IMG/VR virus record: IMGVR_UViG_3300009684_000009 | Coordinates: 1-33,444 of that record | Origin: a virus | Strand: one strand, 5' to 3' | DNA length: 33,444 nt | Shown: positions 4,736 to 20,031 of the stretch, one piece after another | How positions within the stretch are numbered: position 1 is the stretch's first letter | How the letters are laid out: each line of letters starts with the position of its first letter | Made by a program: the position numbers and the translations under genes | The notes under the pieces: generated by a model | What the model was told of the DNA's origin: nothing | Seen by the model: only the letters and a program-made list of their open reading frames with translations | Databases searched by the model: none

Positions 4736-4888
4736 ATGAACATCCAAGATGAATCGCTTGAGGAAATCAACGAGGCGTTAAGTCATATCGTTGAAGTGCT
4801 TCATAAAACTCGCGACTCACAAAAGAAACATTTATGGGCATTGGTTGATGAATTATTAGATGCCAAGATCGCAATGGAAAACAAATGA
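4736..4888 (+). CDS. 50-residue coiled-coil protein
   Basis: MNIQDESLEEINEALSHIVE and the rest to ENK form one long charged amphipathic helix, probably a dimerising coiled coil. It ends in an ATGA overlap with the proteasome-like gene. The start is uncertain: an in-frame ATG at 4718 and a GTG at 4676 exist, but neither has a better ribosome site, and the extra residues would fall in the leader hairpin. Its fixed position before the Ntn hydrolase makes a partner or regulator role possible, which is only inference. Confidence 0.55.
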   Translation: MNIQDESLEEINEALSHIVEVLHKTRDSQKKHLWALVDELLDAKIAMENK

Positions 4889-5457
4889 CAACTCTCGCAG
4901 CTATACAAGGCGATGGATGGATTGTCATGGGTGGTGATTCACAATCATCAGATCAAAACGGATTTAAGGTCAACATTCCTGGCGGCAAGATATTTGAAAA
5001 CAATGGCATTGTCATTGGTGGTGCAGGTGATGTTCGAGGAATAAACATTCTCCAACACAAATGGATTGCACCTAAGACAGGGCGATCTAATCCTGACAGA
5101 TTCATAACAAGAACATTGATCCCGTCAATACGCAAAGCATTCTTAGATGCTGGCTATGAAACAAAGAATGACAACTCAGCAGTAACGCATGGCAACATCT
5201 TTCTTGTTGTCATTGACTGCAACCTCTATCGCATTGAGGATGATTACTCATGGGAACGATGCGAGGAAAATGTTTATGTTGCCGGCAGTGGTGAAGCATT
5301 AGCGTTAGGCGCTATGACTTACGCATTGAAAGATGTGGGCTTTAAGATTCACGATCCTAAGTTGGCAGAGATGATCATTCGCGATGCGATAACTGTTGCT
5401 GCTAAGTGGGATGCTTACACTGGTGGAAAGATCACCACGATAATCAAAGAGCAGTAA
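4885..5457 (+). CDS. Proteasome beta/HslV-like Ntn-hydrolase
   Basis: A 190-residue protein with the 20S proteasome beta/HslV pattern. After removal of Met the new N-terminus is Thr1 (TTLAAIQGDGW). Counting from it, Asp17 lies in GGDSQSSD and Lys34 in GGKIF, matching the catalytic Thr1/Asp17/Lys33 set within one residue. AGSGEALALGAMTYAL matches the family's GSG..ALGA helix start, which carries the supporting Ser. The C-terminal half (AEMIIRDAITVAAKWDAYTGG) follows HslV. There is no long propeptide, as in HslV. No ATPase partner is nearby, so it may work alone, with a host unfoldase, or in virion protein processing. It is transcribed with a coiled-coil gene and the HNH gene just before the packaging module. 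Confidence 0.75.
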   Translation: MTTLAAIQGDGWIVMGGDSQSSDQNGFKVNIPGGKIFENNGIVIGGAGDVRGINILQHKWIAPKTGRSNPDRFITRTLIPSIRKAFLDAGYETKNDNSAVTHGNIFLVVIDCNLYRIEDDYSWERCEENVYVAGSGEALALGAMTYALKDVGFKIHDPKLAEMIIRDAITVAAKWDAYTGGKITTIIKEQ

Positions 5458-7936: not shown

Positions 7937-8084
7937 TCAAATCACGACAATCACCGAATTGATTGGCGCAACAATGATCTCAGTTGGTCTTGGAATCATC
8001 TTTGGCGTTGGTGCTGCTCTTATTGCAGGAGGCGTTCTAGTGGTTGTCGGATCATTTTTGGCAGACTTGGGAGGCAATAAATGA
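7929..8084 (+). CDS. Small membrane protein between terminase and portal
   Basis: A 51-residue protein, essentially two hydrophobic segments (LIGATMISVGLGIIFGVGAA and LIAGGVLVVVGSFLADL) with a charged N-terminus. GGAGG lies about 6 bases before the ATG inside the terminase gene, and the stop overlaps the portal ATG (ATGA). Translation is therefore coupled on both sides. Such short two-helix proteins occur in this slot in several actinophages; a role in head assembly at the membrane or a holin-like role are both possible. Confidence 0.65.
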   Translation: MRDQITTITELIGATMISVGLGIIFGVGAALIAGGVLVVVGSFLADLGGNK

Positions 8085-9184
8085 GCATCTTTAGTCGAGG
8101 CATTCAATCCTTTACAACAGGGCGTTATCCACAGTTTAATAATTATGTTTCACCGCTAAGTCAGTTGTACGGTCAGACATCAATGACCTCAGCTGCCGGT
8201 GAACGAATTGATGAATGGACTGCTCTTGGTGTATCTGCTGTTCTAGGTGCGGTTTCATTGCTTGCTGATTCAGTTGCTTCCATGCCGCTTCGTTGTTATG
8301 AAATTGACAAAGATGGTAAGCGAACAATGAAGCCACTTCCAGATGTTCTTGCCGATCCTGATCCTGAATCAAACACTTACGAATTACTTCATCAAATTGT
8401 TGCTTCAATGGCTTTGCATGGAAACGCTTATGTCAAGATTGACCGAGATCGTTTCGGAAACATGATTGGCTTAGTTCCGCTTCACCCTTATCAAATGCAG
8501 GTCTTGCCAACAGGTGACATGACTGGCCGCCGATACTTACACCTTGGCAATGAAATGAACCGCGAGGATATGCTTCACCTTCGCTGGTTCACACCGCCTC
8601 AATCTTTGGTTGGTATCAGCCCACTGAATCAGGCAAGAAACTTGATCGGTCTTTCAATCGCTATGGATCGCCACTTGGCGCAATTCTATGGCGAGGGTGG
8701 AACACCTTCAGGAATTCTTGAAACAGATCAGAAACTTAATCTTGAACAGGCAAGAGTTATCCAAGCAACTTGGGAAGCAACTCACCGCCGTCACCGCAAG
8801 CCAGCAGTTCTCTCTGATGGTTTGAAGTTCCGACCAATTACAACTTCAGCCGCCGATGCTGAAATGATTGCAACTCGCGAACAATTGATTCGTGACATTG
8901 CTAGAATTTTCCGAATTCCTGATCACCTAATTGGTGCGATGGGCGATAATCAGACCTATCAGAATGTTGAACAAGCATCTCTGAACTTCTTGACTCACAC
9001 AATCGCGCCTTGGATTCGCCGAATTGAAATTGCTATTTCAAACGTTCTTGATCCACGCGATGATGTTGCCTTTGATACTTCAGCGTTACTTCGAACCGAT
9101 GCGCTAACTCGCGCAAGAGTGAACATGATCAATGTTTCAATGGGTGCGCGTACTCCAAACGAAGTTCGCCAAATTGAAGGCTAA
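8081..9184 (+). CDS. Portal protein, HK97-type, C-terminally truncated by an in-frame TAA
   Basis: Forms the dodecameric DNA entry ring at the capsid vertex. The 367 residues read as a HK97-type portal: SAVLGAVSLLADSVASMPLR, a central GNAYVKIDRDRFG, LRWFTPPQSLVGISPL, FYGEGGTPSGIL and the late helix IFRIPDHLIGAMGDNQTYQN. The frame stops at TAA (9182-9184) just after VRQIEG, but the next 41 codons in the same frame read as the missing portal tail and end at a TAATG junction with the next gene. The shortened protein still has the whole stem and wing, so it may function; alternatively the TAA is an assembly error or natural variant. It overlaps the membrane-protein gene by 4 bases. Confidence 0.9.
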   Translation: MSIFSRGIQSFTTGRYPQFNNYVSPLSQLYGQTSMTSAAGERIDEWTALGVSAVLGAVSLLADSVASMPLRCYEIDKDGKRTMKPLPDVLADPDPESNTYELLHQIVASMALHGNAYVKIDRDRFGNMIGLVPLHPYQMQVLPTGDMTGRRYLHLGNEMNREDMLHLRWFTPPQSLVGISPLNQARNLIGLSIAMDRHLAQFYGEGGTPSGILETDQKLNLEQARVIQATWEATHRRHRKPAVLSDGLKFRPITTSAADAEMIATREQLIRDIARIFRIPDHLIGAMGDNQTYQNVEQASLNFLTHTIAPWIRRIEIAISNVLDPRDDVAFDTSALLRTDALTRARVNMINVSMGARTPNEVRQIEG

Positions 9185-9310
9185 GAACCGTTTGATGGTG
9201 GCGATTCATTCAATCAAGCTCTGACTGGTAATGTCACCGCAGGAGGACAAAATCCTGCTCTTGGTGAGGATGCCGATCCTTCAGCGCCGGTGATGGGAGT
9301 CCTTGAATAA
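9185..9310 (+). pseudogene. Stranded C-terminal 41 codons of the portal
   Basis: In the portal frame, directly after the TAA, the sequence reads EPFDGGDSFNQALTG and on to SAPVMGVLE, then TAA at 9308-9310. Portals of this family commonly end with the motif EGL-PP-(F/Y)-x-GGD followed by a polar tail, so the stop codon sits where a Leu is expected (TTA to TAA, one base). The final TAA shares its last A with the ATG of the protease polyprotein, the same coupling used elsewhere in this genome. No start codon with a ribosome site would express it alone. Confidence 0.75.
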
Positions 9311-11523
9311 TGGCTGAAACATTCCGAGTTCCAAACGGGGTTCAAGAGGAAGCCAAAAAAGCATTGGGCTGGATTGCTGAAGGTCATGCTGGCGGTGGAT
9401 TCACAGCTGTTGGCAAGAAAAGAGCAAGTGATTTGGCTGCTGGTCATCCAGTAAGTGCCGAAACAATTTTGAGAATGTATTCATTTTTCAAAAGACATGA
9501 AACAGACAAGCAAGCGCAAGGATTCAACTCTGGGGAGGATGGCTTTCCATCTCCAGGCAGAGTTGCATGGTCAGCTTGGGGCGGCGATGCTGGCTTTACA
9601 TGGTCAACAAGAATCAGAAATCAAATCTCGAAAAGTGCAAGAGCACTTTCCCTGATGGCATCCGAGGAGGGTGACATGGCTGACATGAATCAAGTTCCTG
9701 ATCTAAATGAGGAACTGACTGAACTTCTCGCAGATGTTGTGAGTTTCTATTTCCGCGCTCATGGCGCACACTGGAACGTTAAAGGAAGCGACTTCAGCGA
9801 ATATCACAAACTTTTTAATGAAATCTATGAGGATGTTTACGGGTCAATTGATCCAATTGCCGAGAACCTTCGCAAACTTGGTTCTTTAGCACCATTCACA
9901 CTGCCTTCATTCTTGGCGCTTCGATGCCTTGAGGATGCGCCAACAATTTTGCAAGATCCAATGTCTTTGGCCAGTGACTTATTAGCAGCAAATGACATGA
10001 TCCTTGATGAAATTTCAGATGCCTTTGATTGCGCCACTGCTTATGGCCAACAAGGAGTTGCAAATTTCCTAGCTGATCGCTTAGACAAGCATCAGTTCTG
10101 GAAGTGGCAGTTGACCGCTTCCCTTGGTCAAGAAGTCACTCAACCTTCACCTGATCCTGTTGATGCCCAAGGCATTGATGCAGATGATGATCAGCCTTAC
10201 GATCAAGTTGACGATATGTTGTCAGAGCAAGGTCTTGCGCCTATGCCAATCATGCCACGATCAGCAAGTGGCGCTTCAGACCTTCCAATCGCTCCACGCG
10301 ATACTACTTGGGATGCTGCTGCTGCCGACAAGCGTGTTCAAGAATATGCTGGCGGCAAAGACAACATGGACTGGGCTAAATATGCCAAAGCGTTCTTTTA
10401 TGTTGATGAAACAAACAAAGAATTGCTTGGCTCTTACAAGCTCGGATTTGCTGATGTTATTGACGGTTCACTTGTTGCGGTTCCAAAAGGAATCTTTGCT
10501 GTTGCCGGTGTCTTAAACGGCGCTCGCGGTGGAGCAGATATTCCTGAATCAGATGCAATGGAAATCAAAGACAAGGTGACTGCTTACTATGGTCGCCTTG
10601 CTAAAGAATTCAACGATGATTCAATCAAGGCTCCATTTGAAAATCGCGCTTCCGCAGCTCGTATTGGTGAAGGTTCATTCGTATCTTGGAACACTTCAAA
10701 TGGTCGCGCTAAGGGCAAAGTTGAAAAAGTTGTCACAAAGGGTCAGGCAAAATCATCTGAGGGCTATGCTCTTGAAACAACACCTGATCAACCAGCATTT
10801 TCAATTCGTATTTACAAGGAACAGGGCAATGGTTGGATTCCAACCGATGTGACAGTGGTTCATCGACCAGACATTCTCACAGTTATCACCGCCCTACCTG
10901 CACCACGCTCGGAGGATATTGACATGATTGAACAACGCAAGGCAATGGCAACCGCAGAACGAATCACAATGACTGCTGAAGTTCGCGCTGTTGCAACTGA
11001 TGACGGTTCACTTAAGATCGGCGGCTACGCTGCAACATTTAACAGTGAGGCAAGCGGTTTGAATTTCCGCGAAGTCATCGCACCTGGCGCATTTACTCGC
11101 GCACTTGCATCTAACGATCCAGTTTTCCTTCTTGTCAATCACGATATGGAAGGCATTCCACTGGCCTCAACTCAATCAAGAACTTTGCAACTTCGCCAAG
11201 ATAAAACTGGCCTTTATATGGAAGCAACTCTTGATCCAGCAAATCCAAAAGCTCAAGAACTTTCCTCAGCACTTCGCCGAGGCGATATGGACAAAATGAG
11301 TTTTGCATTCACAGTTTCTCCAGATGGACAAACTAAAGATGCCGGACTTCGTACACTGACAGACATTGAACGCCTCTATGAGGTTTCAGTTGTCACCCTT
11401 CCTGCCTATGACTCAACTTCAGTTGGAATGCGTTCAACAGATGAAGTTGATCTTGATCTTGCCAAGCGCAAGTTAAGCCTGAAGGTCAAACATCATTCCT
11501 TGACTCGCAAGAGCAAGGTATAA
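9310..11523 (+). CDS. Multidomain capsid maturation protease with embedded Dps-like domain
   Basis: A 737-residue protein, against about 200 for a plain HK97 protease. Residues 1-115 are a phage-specific helical domain (VSAETILRMYSFFKRH, PSPGRVAWSAWGGDAG). Residues 123-268 are Dps/ferritin-like: H154 (AHWNVKG), H166, D181 and E185 occupy the Dps ferroxidase positions with exact spacing; the fifth is N170 instead of Asp. Residues 270-330 are an acidic linker. Residues 330-445 are a domain often seen with such proteases (KLGFADVIDG, GARGGADIPE). Residues 452-530 resemble the Tudor-like DUF2945 fold (FVSWNTSNGRAKGKV). Residues 540-730 are the HK97 prohead protease with catalytic H611 (VNHD) and S664 (MSFAF). 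Strong ribosome sites inside suggest shorter products starting at M123 and M539. The protease cleaves scaffold and capsid protein during maturation. Confidence 0.88.
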   Translation: MAETFRVPNGVQEEAKKALGWIAEGHAGGGFTAVGKKRASDLAAGHPVSAETILRMYSFFKRHETDKQAQGFNSGEDGFPSPGRVAWSAWGGDAGFTWSTRIRNQISKSARALSLMASEEGDMADMNQVPDLNEELTELLADVVSFYFRAHGAHWNVKGSDFSEYHKLFNEIYEDVYGSIDPIAENLRKLGSLAPFTLPSFLALRCLEDAPTILQDPMSLASDLLAANDMILDEISDAFDCATAYGQQGVANFLADRLDKHQFWKWQLTASLGQEVTQPSPDPVDAQGIDADDDQPYDQVDDMLSEQGLAPMPIMPRSASGASDLPIAPRDTTWDAAAADKRVQEYAGGKDNMDWAKYAKAFFYVDETNKELLGSYKLGFADVIDGSLVAVPKGIFAVAGVLNGARGGADIPESDAMEIKDKVTAYYGRLAKEFNDDSIKAPFENRASAARIGEGSFVSWNTSNGRAKGKVEKVVTKGQAKSSEGYALETTPDQPAFSIRIYKEQGNGWIPTDVTVVHRPDILTVITALPAPRSEDIDMIEQRKAMATAERITMTAEVRAVATDDGSLKIGGYAATFNSEASGLNFREVIAPGAFTRALASNDPVFLLVNHDMEGIPLASTQSRTLQLRQDKTGLYMEATLDPANPKAQELSSALRRGDMDKMSFAFTVSPDGQTKDAGLRTLTDIERLYEVSVVTLPAYDSTSVGMRSTDEVDLDLAKRKLSLKVKHHSLTRKSKV
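9664..9678 (+). promoter_or_regulatory. Internal ribosome site and ATG before the Dps domain
   Basis: GAGGAGG (9664-9670) lies 5 bases before ATG 9676-9678, which is in frame with the long protein (M123) and falls exactly where the Dps-like domain begins (MADMNQVPDLNEELTELL). It would yield a 615-residue product lacking the first domain. This ribosome site looks stronger than anything before the ATG at 9310. Confidence 0.6.
10911..10926 (+). promoter_or_regulatory. Internal ribosome site and ATG before the protease domain
   Basis: GGAGG (10911-10915) lies 8 bases before ATG 10924-10926, in frame as M539 of the long protein. Starting here gives a 199-residue protein beginning MIEQRKAMATAER, the length of a stand-alone HK97-type protease. 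The position at the domain border makes chance less likely. Confidence 0.6.
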
Positions 11524-11581: not shown

Positions 11582-12931
11582 ATGACTCTAAGCACAAAAC
11601 TCAAGGAGCAGCGTGATGCACTTGTTGCCGAGGTTGAAACAACTTTAGCAGCTGAGGAAGTTACCGCAGAAGCTCTTGATGCCGCATCAGTGAAGCAAGA
11701 TGAAATTGCTGCACTAGATGAGCGCATCGCAACTGCCGACAAGGTAGAAGCTCGCACAGCAGCAATCGCAGAATCTCGCAAGGATTCAAAGGTTGCAACA
11801 TTCGGCGGCGCAGTAGTTACTCGCGAAGCTATGACATACGACAAAGATGGTCGCAACTCATTCGTTCGCGACATGATTGGCGCAAACCTTCGCAATGACC
11901 GCAATTCATGGGAGCGTTTGCAACGCCACCAGCAAGAAGTTGCTGTTGAAACACGCGACATCTCACGCACTGACGGAGCCGGTGGAGACCTAGTTCCTCC
12001 CCTATACCTGATCAATGAATATGCCGAATTCGCTCGTGCTGCTCGTGTAGGTGCTGACCTTGTTACAAACATGGCACTACCAGCAGGAACAGACAGCATC
12101 AACATTCCGCAGATCACAACAGGTACACTTGCTGCATTCCAGTCAGCAGATAACACTGCAACAACAACACGCGATATGATCTCATCAACGGTCTCAAGCC
12201 CAGTGCGTACCATATCCGGCTATGAAAACGTGAGCATTCAGCTGGTGGAACAGTCACCTCTTGCTGGCGGTCTTGATCGCTTAGTATTCGGCGATCTAAT
12301 GGCTGACTATGCACTACAACTCAACACAGCTGTTGTTGGCACTGGTGACGGAACATCAGGAACACTAAAGGGTCTCATCACTCTTGGTGCTGACAGCACA
12401 AACGGAATTCCGACAAGCTGGACAGAGACCACTCCAACTGCTGTTAACGGCGCAATCGCAATTGCTAAGGCAATTTCAAAGGTTGTAACAAACCGCTACA
12501 AGCAAGCAGAAGCTATTTTGATGTCTCCATCAATGTGGTACTGGTTCGCTTCACAGGTAGATAGCTCAAATCGCCCTCTAGTAGTACCTGTCACAGGCGC
12601 ATCCTCTGCATTCAACGCAGCAGGTACAATCACCAATCCTGGCGCTCCTGCTGGCCTTGTAGGTACAATTCAAGGTGTTCCAGTCTTTATTGATGCAACA
12701 ATGACAAAGACATATGGCGCATCAACAAACCAATCACCAATTTTGGTTGGTAAGTTCTCAGATTCATACCTATTTGAATCAGGTGTTAAGACTCGCGTTC
12801 TGCCAGATGTCCTTTCAAGCAACTTAACAGTTCGCTTCCAGGTGTACGGCTACGCAGCACTTGCACACCGCTTTAACAAGTCAGTTTCGGCAATTAGCGG
12901 AACTGGCGCAGTTGCACCTTCAGGCTATTAA
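11582..12931 (+). CDS. Major capsid protein, HK97 fold
   Basis: A 449-residue shell protein. Residues 1-75 are a charged coiled coil (LSTKLKEQRDALVAEVETTL) that acts like the HK97 scaffold (delta) domain and would be removed by the protease encoded just upstream. The E-loop/N-arm region follows. GGDLVPPLYLINEYAEFAR begins the P-domain, and YENVSIQLVEQSPLAGGLDR, QAEAILMSPSMWYWF and TVRFQVYGYAALAHRF are standard Phage_capsid segments. The cleavage site cannot be fixed by eye. GAGAAAGGG lies 6-8 bases before the ATG, and codon use looks like that of a highly expressed gene. A long hairpin follows the stop. Confidence 0.93.
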   Translation: MTLSTKLKEQRDALVAEVETTLAAEEVTAEALDAASVKQDEIAALDERIATADKVEARTAAIAESRKDSKVATFGGAVVTREAMTYDKDGRNSFVRDMIGANLRNDRNSWERLQRHQQEVAVETRDISRTDGAGGDLVPPLYLINEYAEFARAARVGADLVTNMALPAGTDSINIPQITTGTLAAFQSADNTATTTRDMISSTVSSPVRTISGYENVSIQLVEQSPLAGGLDRLVFGDLMADYALQLNTAVVGTGDGTSGTLKGLITLGADSTNGIPTSWTETTPTAVNGAIAIAKAISKVVTNRYKQAEAILMSPSMWYWFASQVDSSNRPLVVPVTGASSAFNAAGTITNPGAPAGLVGTIQGVPVFIDATMTKTYGASTNQSPILVGKFSDSYLFESGVKTRVLPDVLSSNLTVRFQVYGYAALAHRFNKSVSAISGTGAVAPSGY

Positions 12932-13008: not shown

Positions 13009-13155
13009 ATGCAATCTATATTTCTTGAAGGTTTGAAGTCTGCTCGCGAGATAGTGCAGAACAAAGGTATTCAACATCTTGACCGATTGATTGATGAACT
13101 TGAAGTCGGATCAATTGAAACAACTGCTTTGGCTCCAAAAATGGAGTCGCGATGA
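13009..13155 (+). CDS. 48-residue protein before the glycosyltransferase
   Basis: MQSIFLEGLKSAREIVQNKG then a helical middle, ending APKMESR. CAGGGGGA lies 6-12 bases before the ATG. Its stop overlaps the ATG of the glycosyltransferase (ATGA at 13152-13155), so it may act as a translation lead-in. It is an amphipathic helical protein of unknown role. Confidence 0.6.
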   Translation: MQSIFLEGLKSAREIVQNKGIQHLDRLIDELEVGSIETTALAPKMESR

Positions 13156-13865
13156 AATCAAGTCACAAGGTTTGCGTTGGCATGGTCAACAACGGAACGA
13201 TTGATTCACTCCTTGCGCTTGACCTTATTCAAATTGCAAAAAAGAAAGATGGTCGCTTTGCTCACATGATTCAAGTGGGCAATGTTGGACTTACTACTCG
13301 ATCACGCAATGTTGTAGTTAAAACATTCTTGGAAACAACAGATTCCGAATGGCTCTTAATGATTGACTCAGATGAGCGACTTTCAACTGATACTTGGCTC
13401 AAGCTGATAGATGCTGCTCACGATAAAGATCGCCCAATTGTTTCAGGGCTAGTTTTTGCAGCATTCTTTGACAATAGCGATGCGCTTCGCCCAGTTCCAA
13501 CGATTTATCGCATGGATTCTGAAAAGGGTTTGGAAGCAATTGATGCCTATCCGCTTGACTCAATCATTGAAGTTGATGCTGTCGGAACTGGTTGCCTTTT
13601 AATCCATCGCAGCGTTCTGCTAGATATGCAACAAAAGGCAACGCCGAATCAAGGCAAGGATTGGGCTTGGTTCGTAGAAGGCGCAATTGATGGAACTTAT
13701 TTTGGCGAGGATTTACTATTTTCCAAGCGCTTGAAATCTATGGGTTACAAGATTCACGCCCACACCGGCGCAATACTGCCTCACCACAAACAATTTTGGT
13801 TGGATGAACGCCATCACAAAGCGATGCGCGATCATGCAATTCAACAAGTCAAGCAAGAAGGTTGA
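13152..13865 (+). CDS. GT-A type glycosyltransferase-like protein
   Basis: A 237-residue protein with the layout of a GT2-type enzyme. It has an N-terminal strand VCVGMVNNG, TTRSRNVVVKTFLE (the usual R-N-x-(4) helix), metal/nucleotide-sugar motif LLMIDSDERL (D72-S-D74), VDAVGTGCLLIHRSVL as the acceptor loop, and FGEDLLFSKRLKSMGYKIHA with the ED catalytic-base motif. It would transfer a sugar from an activated donor. Placed between capsid and head-fibre genes, it could glycosylate virion proteins or host surface sugars. A second enzyme of this fold lies at 28498. It is bracketed by two long hairpins and looks like an inserted cassette. Confidence 0.75.
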   Translation: MKSSHKVCVGMVNNGTIDSLLALDLIQIAKKKDGRFAHMIQVGNVGLTTRSRNVVVKTFLETTDSEWLLMIDSDERLSTDTWLKLIDAAHDKDRPIVSGLVFAAFFDNSDALRPVPTIYRMDSEKGLEAIDAYPLDSIIEVDAVGTGCLLIHRSVLLDMQQKATPNQGKDWAWFVEGAIDGTYFGEDLLFSKRLKSMGYKIHAHTGAILPHHKQFWLDERHHKAMRDHAIQQVKQEG

Positions 13866-18993: not shown

Positions 18994-19224
18994 ATGGCTT
19001 ATACAATCATCAGCAATCGCCTTGACTGCAAGAAAGTTGAAGGCGATTCAATTACAGACAAAGAATTGCTTGAGATGGGTGCAAACATTGAAGCACTCAT
19101 TGAAGGCGGTCACATCTTGGGGGATGCGACAAAAGCAAGTTCAACAGAAACCTCAAACGAAACTGCCGCGCCAGTGGTAGAATCAACATCAGCAATCTCT
19201 GAAGGAGCAACCATCAATGGCTAA
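18994..19224 (+). CDS. Small protein upstream of the tail tube
   Basis: A 76-residue protein: residues 1-45 (AYTIISNRLDCKKVEGDSIT, LLEMGANIEALIEGGHI) look folded, and the rest is a Thr/Ser/Glu-rich tail. AAGGAGA precedes the ATG at 18994, and its stop overlaps the next ATG by 8 bases. Similar small proteins with a disordered C-terminus occur before tail tube genes; function unknown. Confidence 0.6.
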   Translation: MAYTIISNRLDCKKVEGDSITDKELLEMGANIEALIEGGHILGDATKASSTETSNETAAPVVESTSAISEGATING

Positions 19225-19624
19225 AATAGTCCTAACAGATGCAAAAGTGACGATCAACTCAGTCAATCTCTCTGATCATATCAATAGCATCACTCTTGAA
19301 ACAAAAGACGATATTGTCGAGACCACTGCATTTGGATCAACAGCCAAAACACGCGTTGCCGGACTTGTTGACAATTCAGTGACTTTTGACTTTATGCAAG
19401 ACTTTGCAGCAGCAAATGTTGAAGCAACAATCTATCCGTTGCTTGGATCAACAACCACAATTGTTGTTCAACCAACTTCATCTGCTGTCGGCACAACAAA
19501 TCCAACATACACATTCACCGCGCTCATCTCAGAGTGGTCACCTCTTAAGGGTGGAATTGGTCAGTTAGCAACCGCATCGGTTACTTGGCCAATTAGCGGA
19601 TCTATTACAAAGGCGGTTGCATAA
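19217..19624 (+). CDS. Major tail tube protein, copy 1
   Basis: A 135-residue beta-rich protein. KIVLTDAKVTINSVNLSDHI, TLETKDDIVETTAFGSTAKT, NVEATIYPLLG and ISEWSPLKGGIGQLATASVT are typical of short siphophage tail tube proteins of actinophages, which stack as hexamer rings. It is followed with one-base overlap (TAATG) by a close relative of the same length. Both copies share the same fold and ends, so one may be the main tube and the other a minor or alternative subunit. Confidence 0.8.
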   Translation: MAKIVLTDAKVTINSVNLSDHINSITLETKDDIVETTAFGSTAKTRVAGLVDNSVTFDFMQDFAAANVEATIYPLLGSTTTIVVQPTSSAVGTTNPTYTFTALISEWSPLKGGIGQLATASVTWPISGSITKAVA

Positions 19625-20031
19625 TGGCAAAGCTAGTCCTCACAAACCCATCAATCACAATCGGTTCAACCGATCTTTCGTCATATATCACAAGCGTAAC
19701 GCTTGACACAAAATATGACATTGTTGAAACCACATCATTTGGCTCAACAGCCAAGACTAGAGTTGCCGGACTTGCTGACAATTCCGTAACTCTTGACTTC
19801 TTGCAGGACTTTTCGGCATCAGCTGTTGAAGCAACAATTTATCCGTTGCTTGGAACTAGCACCTCAATTGTCATCAAGCCAGTTGCAACAACAACCACAA
19901 CAACGAATCCGACATATACGGTTTCAGCGATTGTTTCTGAATGGTCACCACTTAAGGGTGGAATCGGTCAGTTAGCAACAGCATCAGTCACATGGCCTGT
20001 TTCAGGCACAATTGCAAAAGCAACTTCATAA
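19624..20031 (+). CDS. Major tail tube protein, copy 2
   Basis: A 135-residue paralogue of the previous gene, same length and collinear without gaps. It shares KTRVAGL-x-DNSVT-x-DF, VEATIYPLLG and SEWSPLKGGIGQLATASVTW. Differences cluster in the strand after PLLG (STSIVIKPVATTTT against STTTIVVQPTSSAV), likely a surface-exposed part. The DNA of the two copies differs at many third positions, so the duplication is old and both copies are kept under selection. Confidence 0.8.
   Translation: MAKLVLTNPSITIGSTDLSSYITSVTLDTKYDIVETTSFGSTAKTRVAGLADNSVTLDFLQDFSASAVEATIYPLLGTSTSIVIKPVATTTTTTNPTYTVSAIVSEWSPLKGGIGQLATASVTWPVSGTIAKATS

Follow-up and report, generated by a model that had tools for sequence, protein, structure and literature searches.

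The window analysed here is a virus record of 33,444 bases in which a 737-aa open reading frame (ORF) follows the portal gene and precedes the major capsid gene. The head genes and the parts of the ORF, a polyprotein, are as follows.

8081..9184, + strand: portal protein gene (Pfam Phage_portal, 1.2e-81; phrog_12), its stop 126 nt 5' of the polyprotein
9310..11523, + strand: polyprotein ORF, 737 aa, with N domain, Dps, middle domain, Tudor and S78 protease (ORF, Pfam, PHROGs, AlphaFold)
9310..9645, + strand: N domain, residues 1-112 (phrog_2859, 8.8e-38; basic, pI 9.8)
9676..10134, + strand: Dps / mini-ferritin domain, residues 123-275 (Pfam Ferritin, PDB sequences, AlphaFold, Foldseek)
10285..10659, + strand: middle domain, residues 326-450, missing in many relatives
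10672..10806, + strand: Hva1_TUDOR domain, residues 455-499 (Pfam PF11160, 1.7e-6; basic, pI 9.5)
10924..11523, + strand: S78 prohead protease from internal ATG 10924, residues about 541-737 (Pfam Peptidase_S78, TIGR01543)
11582..12931, + strand: major capsid protein (Pfam Phage_capsid, 1.3e-17, match from residue 159 on), with a long N-terminal region

The protease domain matched Peptidase_S78 (PF04586) over residues 556-711 (1.4e-37, 129.8 bits) and TIGR01543 with 116 bits against a cut-off of 59. Its residues H611, D612 and S664 are invariant in A3, the conserved His and Ser of S78 being present, and its position between the portal and major capsid genes is the same in relatives. AlphaFold predicted the full-length polyprotein as separate domains joined by low-confidence linkers (residues 108-129, 275-317 and 533-542); with a pTM of only 0.29, the relative placement of the domains in this model is meaningless. 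The portal ORF of the window stops at 9182-9184 and is 367 aa long, while homologues have ~406-411 aa and reach the polyprotein start; the frame is open from the stop to 9309, possibly reflecting a nonsense variant or a sequencing error. Elsewhere in the window, a predicted HslV-type peptidase (4885-5457; phrog_1040, 7.3e-30) lies 5' of the terminase gene, a glycosyltransferase-like gene (13152-13865; phrog_34859) stands in the head module immediately 3' of the capsid gene, and two similar 135-aa genes are in tandem in the tail-module region (19217-19624 and 19624-20031), the stop of one overlapping the start of the other. No tRNA genes were found in the 33,444 bases.

Residues 123-275 are a true Dps domain, lying upstream of an intact S78 prohead protease. 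Pfam Ferritin (PF00210) matched residues 134-273 (1.3e-13; 51.6 bits against a cut-off of 24.5), phrog_3636, a Dps-type 'DNA binding protein', matched residues 127-273 (3.8e-18), and a PDB sequence search returned Dps chains of solved structures (best 1e-14); the NCBIfam Dps equivalog models matched below cut-off. AlphaFold predicted residues 123-275 as a four-helix bundle with a short BC helix (pLDDT 93, pTM 0.88), whose best PDB matches in Foldseek were all Dps/NAP proteins (TM about 0.8-0.94). An earlier note on this DNA had described a Dps signature in the polyprotein and suggested a structure prediction of the segment; the signature is borne out by Pfam, PHROGs, PDB sequences, AlphaFold and Foldseek, the predicted structure is the four-helix ferritin bundle, and the positions given for H154, H166, N170, D181 and E185, with their spacing of +12/+16/+27/+31, proved exact. 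Chance resemblance to Dps is ruled out by the Pfam, PDB-sequence, AlphaFold and Foldseek results and by ligand invariance in 122/122 homologues. Dps assembles as a dodecamer with its ferroxidase site between two subunits, so ligands that do not converge inside one monomer are no evidence against the assignment. DNA binding through a basic tail occurs in some Dps proteins only and does not define the family. The domain here is acidic (pI 4.3; 9 K+R against 25 D+E) and has no basic tail, which makes DNA binding by the Dps domain itself unlikely. The DNA protection that had been proposed for it is possible as scavenging of iron and peroxide, and improbable as shielding by DNA binding.

We counted ligand conservation over 122 distinct viral homologues, with 20 bacterial sequences for comparison.

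9769..9771, + strand: H154, ferroxidase ligand, 122/122 viral homologues
9805..9807, + strand: H166, ferroxidase ligand, 122/122 viral homologues
9817..9819, + strand: N170, fifth-ligand position, Q/L/E/N/S/G/A/M in viral sequences and never Asp, D in 14/20 bacterial sequences
9832..9834, + strand: D175, invariant in the viral clade only (122/122 viral; variable in bacteria)
9850..9852, + strand: D181, ferroxidase ligand, 122/122 viral homologues
9862..9864, + strand: E185, ferroxidase ligand, 122/122 viral homologues

The viral clade has thus kept His/His/Asp/Glu of the canonical His, His, Asp, Asp, Glu set, the fifth ligand never being Asp. Because this ligand is lost throughout the clade, ferroxidase activity could be slow or altered; the strict retention of the other four suggests that the metal chemistry of the Dps cargo matters. 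In a quick tree of 77 rows, 59 viral-type rows split from most bacterial Dps and from three cultured-phage Dps (SH-aLRT 98), with one very long-branched bacterial row inside the viral-type group; the inner forks are uncertain because the alignment has few columns. A pattern scan of IMG/VR recovered at least 569 confirmed relatives of the viral Dps. When 84,980 genomes were scanned in a similar way, two relatives turned up. One lies on an Actinomycetota MAG contig (L083) that carries N domain, Dps and S78 flanked by portal and capsid genes and is the sole fused member from the genome scan.

Dps is built into the capsid-maturation protease polypeptide in many metagenome-only phages. Among the 54 best IMG/VR matches, Dps and S78 were fused wherever the ORF was complete, and portal and capsid genes adjoined whenever they were on the contig. 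Contigs with the in-frame fusion number in the dozens and derive from different metagenomes; their Dps identities are 63-100%. The fusion to an HK97-type prohead protease, as the earlier note had it, holds by the S78 match above cut-offs, the portal-capsid position and this recurrence, and the search for the same domain order elsewhere, which that note had recommended, yielded dozens of IMG/VR contigs and one MAG. Assembly fusion is ruled out by recurrence in many contigs and the MAG. Across the clade the domain was seen in the following forms, the counts of which are biased by the choice of query.

(a) the window's own order, N-Dps-(Mid)-(Tudor)-S78, some members of which lack Mid, Tudor or N; the shortest are Dps-S78 of about 436-464 aa (L053, L095, L104, L149, L154)
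(b) phrog_9427 protease-DUF6321-Dps-C-terminal extension, flanked by portal and capsid genes of other types (L071, L085, L087)
(c) phrog_3270 protease-Dps (L156)
(d) a phrog_859 portal, a phrog_18402 protease and Dps, in this order in one protein of 1,765 aa (L120)
(e) L110-type, about 650 aa, Dps mid-protein and a charged C-terminal region, flanked by portal (phrog_9232) and capsid (phrog_3922) genes
(f) split, an N-Dps ORF followed directly by a separate S78 ORF (L059-L061)
(g) a Dps ORF immediately 3' of a phrog_776 portal

For the N-terminal part of the L110 type, protease likeness was seen by eye only, and profile comparison was not significant. Other clade members stand alone, often adjoining a DUF6321 ORF (L058, L063, L100, L102, L103, L107, L111, L112, L135 and L146), and two of the stand-alone genes (L056, L062) are distant from recognised head genes. 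On the Dps tree, the states 'fused' and 'not fused' require 8 changes. Profile comparison also suggested a relationship between DUF6321 and the N domain (phrog_2859; 67%, 5e-5). As a separate observation, an interruption of about 170-220 nt splits the major capsid gene in several relatives (L132:6112-6309 and L095:7710-7905, similarly in L030, L096 and L141). In L132 and L095, Rfam scored it above cut-off as a group I intron (RF00028); the capsid gene of the window is uninterrupted.

The polyprotein ORF further contains two internal sites with the features of translation starts.

9664..9671, + strand: internal Shine-Dalgarno (SD) GAGGAGGG preceding the Dps start, whose ATG has the best pairing (-12.1 kcal/mol) of 116 internal in-frame ATGs
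9676..9678, + strand: internal ATG (M123), putative start of a Dps-to-protease product (anti-SD ranking, relatives)
10911..10915, + strand: internal Shine-Dalgarno GGAGG for the protease start (ATG 10924), second strongest of 116 (-9.5 kcal/mol)

The DNA 5' of residue 123 reads GAGGAGGGTGAC-ATG, and that 5' of residue 539 reads CGGAGGATATTGAC-ATG. Of the in-frame ATGs inside the 21 long genes of the window, 116 in all, the two with the strongest anti-SD pairing mark precisely where Dps and the protease begin, and only 1/34 gene starts pairs as strongly as the Dps site. The ATG before Dps ranked first or second among internal ATGs in 59/66 Dps-S78 ORFs, and the site persists where the encoded residues differ (SEEGD-M in the window, YKESN-M in L006, SEEDA-M in L053; L012 also differs). 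Over the five codons before the Dps ATG, Glu was encoded by GAG in 99/109 cases against 28% elsewhere, and before the protease ATG in 55/82 against 31%; these internal-start and codon counts come from related, non-independent sequences. In the separate lineages L059 and L090 the top internal site likewise precedes Dps. The site is missing or weak in the fusions L049, L083, L110 and L154, and L110, L113, L156 and L120 have no candidate ATG in the zone preceding Dps. Nested products are likely, given that the strongest internal sites coincide with the two domain starts, and from its sequence the ORF probably yields full-length, Dps-to-protease and protease-only products. With starts nested as predicted, Dps would always be covalently joined to the protease when made.

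The segment occupied by Dps is exchangeable. A scan seeded with the portal, and hence not selected for Dps, gave 80 loci, of which 72 had Dps in the polyprotein, 2 ended too early and 6 lacked it. Dps is therefore present in 72/78 informative close relatives, and in the remaining 6/78 (L221-L225, L227) another small helical domain, MAADAAMDAAQ...AYYLICAADAALSEVIEALG, takes the same slot. The SD/ATG before the slot was the strongest internal site in five of these six and the second strongest in L227. A search of four of the six contigs with the ferritin model gave no match. In S78 polyproteins further removed from these, the N-terminal modules are different ones, among them a HAD-like phosphatase domain and cysteine-rich domains. 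Since the slot can be exchanged, Dps is not essential to capsid maturation.

Segments of the type CxxC...C...C were noted in prohead-protease or Dps proteins of L083, L272, L294, L301, L308, L125 and L066. Two cysteine-rich segments had sub-threshold Pfam HiPIP matches (E 0.004 and 0.085), and as the matches are sub-threshold only, we do not claim a HiPIP-like iron-sulfur identity for the cysteine-rich domains beside some proteases. The N-domain region of L294 and L301 gave sub-threshold matches to an 8-oxoguanine glycosylase-like family, and a redox theme among these cysteine-rich and glycosylase-like segments is possible.

HK97-type proteases enter the prohead and are later destroyed or released. 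We propose as the likeliest reading, at what we judge to be an even chance, that the protease polyprotein is a modular loading platform which gives nested products and leaves in the particle a mini-ferritin that takes up Fe(II) and peroxide. The S78 protease would be synthesised joined to a cargo module, here a virus-specific Dps that retains four ferroxidase ligands out of five. Ribosome-binding sites inside the ORF, one for the Dps start and one for the protease start, would give the full polyprotein, a Dps-to-protease product and the protease alone, with free protease made in addition to the Dps-joined form. Once the capsid has assembled, the protease would cut the linkers, and the mini-ferritin would probably stay inside the particle. 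There, by taking up Fe(II) and peroxide, Dps could lessen oxidative damage, whether to the DNA in the capsid or to the cell just infected. A loading platform for capsid cargo fits the joining of one domain to different proteases, its head-operon position and the swapping of the slot. The carriage of Dps into the capsid, already suggested in the earlier note, is supported indirectly by fusions to several protease types, the portal-capsid position and module swapping; packaging, linker cleavage, dodecamer formation, ferroxidase activity and the benefit of Dps are what we infer.

The main rival is that Dps acts in the infected cell as a late oxidative-stress defence of the host and the replicating phage DNA, being cleaved from the protease, with the fusion ensuring co-expression only. 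A freshwater-phage ferritin has been proposed as phage-mediated defence of the host against reactive oxygen (PMC6802176), stand-alone phage Dps have been proposed as metabolic help (PMC8008677, PMC6669764), and cultured-phage Dps genes lie among nucleotide metabolism genes. However, a late head position and a recurrent covalent link to several prohead proteases would be odd for a soluble enzyme, which needs no fusion, and the slot is swapped for helical domains of non-enzymatic look; we regard this role as unlikely. Next comes a purely structural co-option, in which oligomerising Dps brings twelve proteases together or seeds the prohead core and metal chemistry is secondary. The dodecamers textbooks describe for Dps, the C-terminal extension after Dps in XkdF-type and L110-type fusions and the loss of the fifth ligand would suit it, but His/His/Asp/Glu, unneeded in a scaffold, is kept in 122/122 sequences, a smaller, unrelated-looking domain replaces Dps in close relatives, a long N-terminal region is already present in the capsid protein, and the internal starts predict a Dps-free protease. 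The internal scaffold that had been offered as an alternative to DNA protection thus loses ground, given six close relatives without Dps (four of their contigs searched, with no other ferritin) and strictly kept ligands that a scaffold would not require, and we consider a structural role rather unlikely, the more so of these two.

Encapsidated Dps could also be a carrier, loaded with iron in the dying host, from which iron or Dps is delivered to the next cell with the DNA. The fusion and position evidence bears on this explanation as it does on the loading platform, and an iron-related 'Ferrojan horse' idea exists for phages, one instance being a ferritin-like protein that mass spectrometry revealed in Vi01-like phages (PMC10892097). 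Passage of a folded ~9 nm 12-mer through a tail tube is nevertheless improbable, and we hold delivery to be very unlikely. An assembly or annotation artefact, or a chance resemblance, might be suspected because the window is a single metagenomic contig; its probability is negligible, since dozens of contigs, drawn from different metagenomes and with a Dps identity of 63-100%, share the fusion, as does the L083 Actinomycetota MAG, and this recurrence already refutes it.

Returning to the loading platform, a wider reading can be put forward tentatively, as somewhat doubtful in its entirety: the prohead proteases of many uncultured phages may be modular cargo vehicles, with an exchangeable slot that has its own ribosome-binding site and whose domains, fused to the protease, enter the capsid and are released in it. 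The cargo of such slots, of which Dps is the commonest seen near the window, might comprise mini-ferritin, other helical or cysteine-rich domains and phosphatase-like domains, with Dps making virions iron-detoxifying. If this were true, the capsids of a common uncultured phage group would hold an iron-oxidising mini-ferritin, and the prohead protease would be a general means by which virions are loaded with enzymes. It would provide a testable answer to how phage DNA is guarded from Fenton chemistry outside the cell and a natural fusion handle for packaging proteins in HK97-type capsids, and some phage ferritin genes assigned to 'ROS defence' may work in the particle rather than the host.

Phage Dps are already known; the protease fusion, nested starts and exchangeable slot are apparently undescribed, as we found no description of any of them in a mostly open-access literature. 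The internal starts, the exchangeable slot and the virus-specific clade without the fifth ligand go beyond the earlier note. The Dps-like proteins borne by Gratiaviridae, Lactobacillus phages and freshwater phages resemble the window domain in being phage-borne, and a role against reactive oxygen has been proposed for them (PMC8008677, PMC6669764, PMC6802176); the protease fusion is absent from these three accounts. In contrast to the window Dps, the cultured-phage genes that we examined stand alone in nucleotide-metabolism regions, not among head genes, and their Dps group falls outside the window's viral clade in the tree. UniProt/BFVD proteins of 'uncultured Caudovirales phage' share this Dps module, at 46-53% identity and TMq 0.85-0.92 in Foldseek, for example A0A6J7WPK9 (763 aa, 'Prohead protease'), A0A6J7WIS1 and A0A6J7WVS4 (498 aa, 'DNA-binding protein Dps'); they carry automatic names only, several of them 'prohead protease'.

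Compared with HK97-type prohead proteases (Peptidase_S78 / TIGR01543), the window protein shares S78 matches above curated cut-offs, the portal-capsid position and H611 with S664, and adds about 540 N-terminal residues of cargo-like domains and a putative protease-only internal start. With the Dps family (PF00210; H. pylori NAP, T. pallidum TpF1, Listeria Dps) it has in common a TM of about 0.9, the HWNV.G motif and the His/His/Asp/Glu spacing, whereas the viral Dps is embedded in a prohead-protease polyprotein, never has Asp as fifth ligand, has an invariant D175, is acidic without a basic DNA-binding tail and forms its own clade (SH-aLRT 98). The T4 IP proteins and the inner-body proteins of giant phages are prohead cargo that is processed by the prohead protease and targeted by short signals. 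The Dps described here would likewise be prohead cargo, but it is fused to the protease itself, and its packaging is putative.
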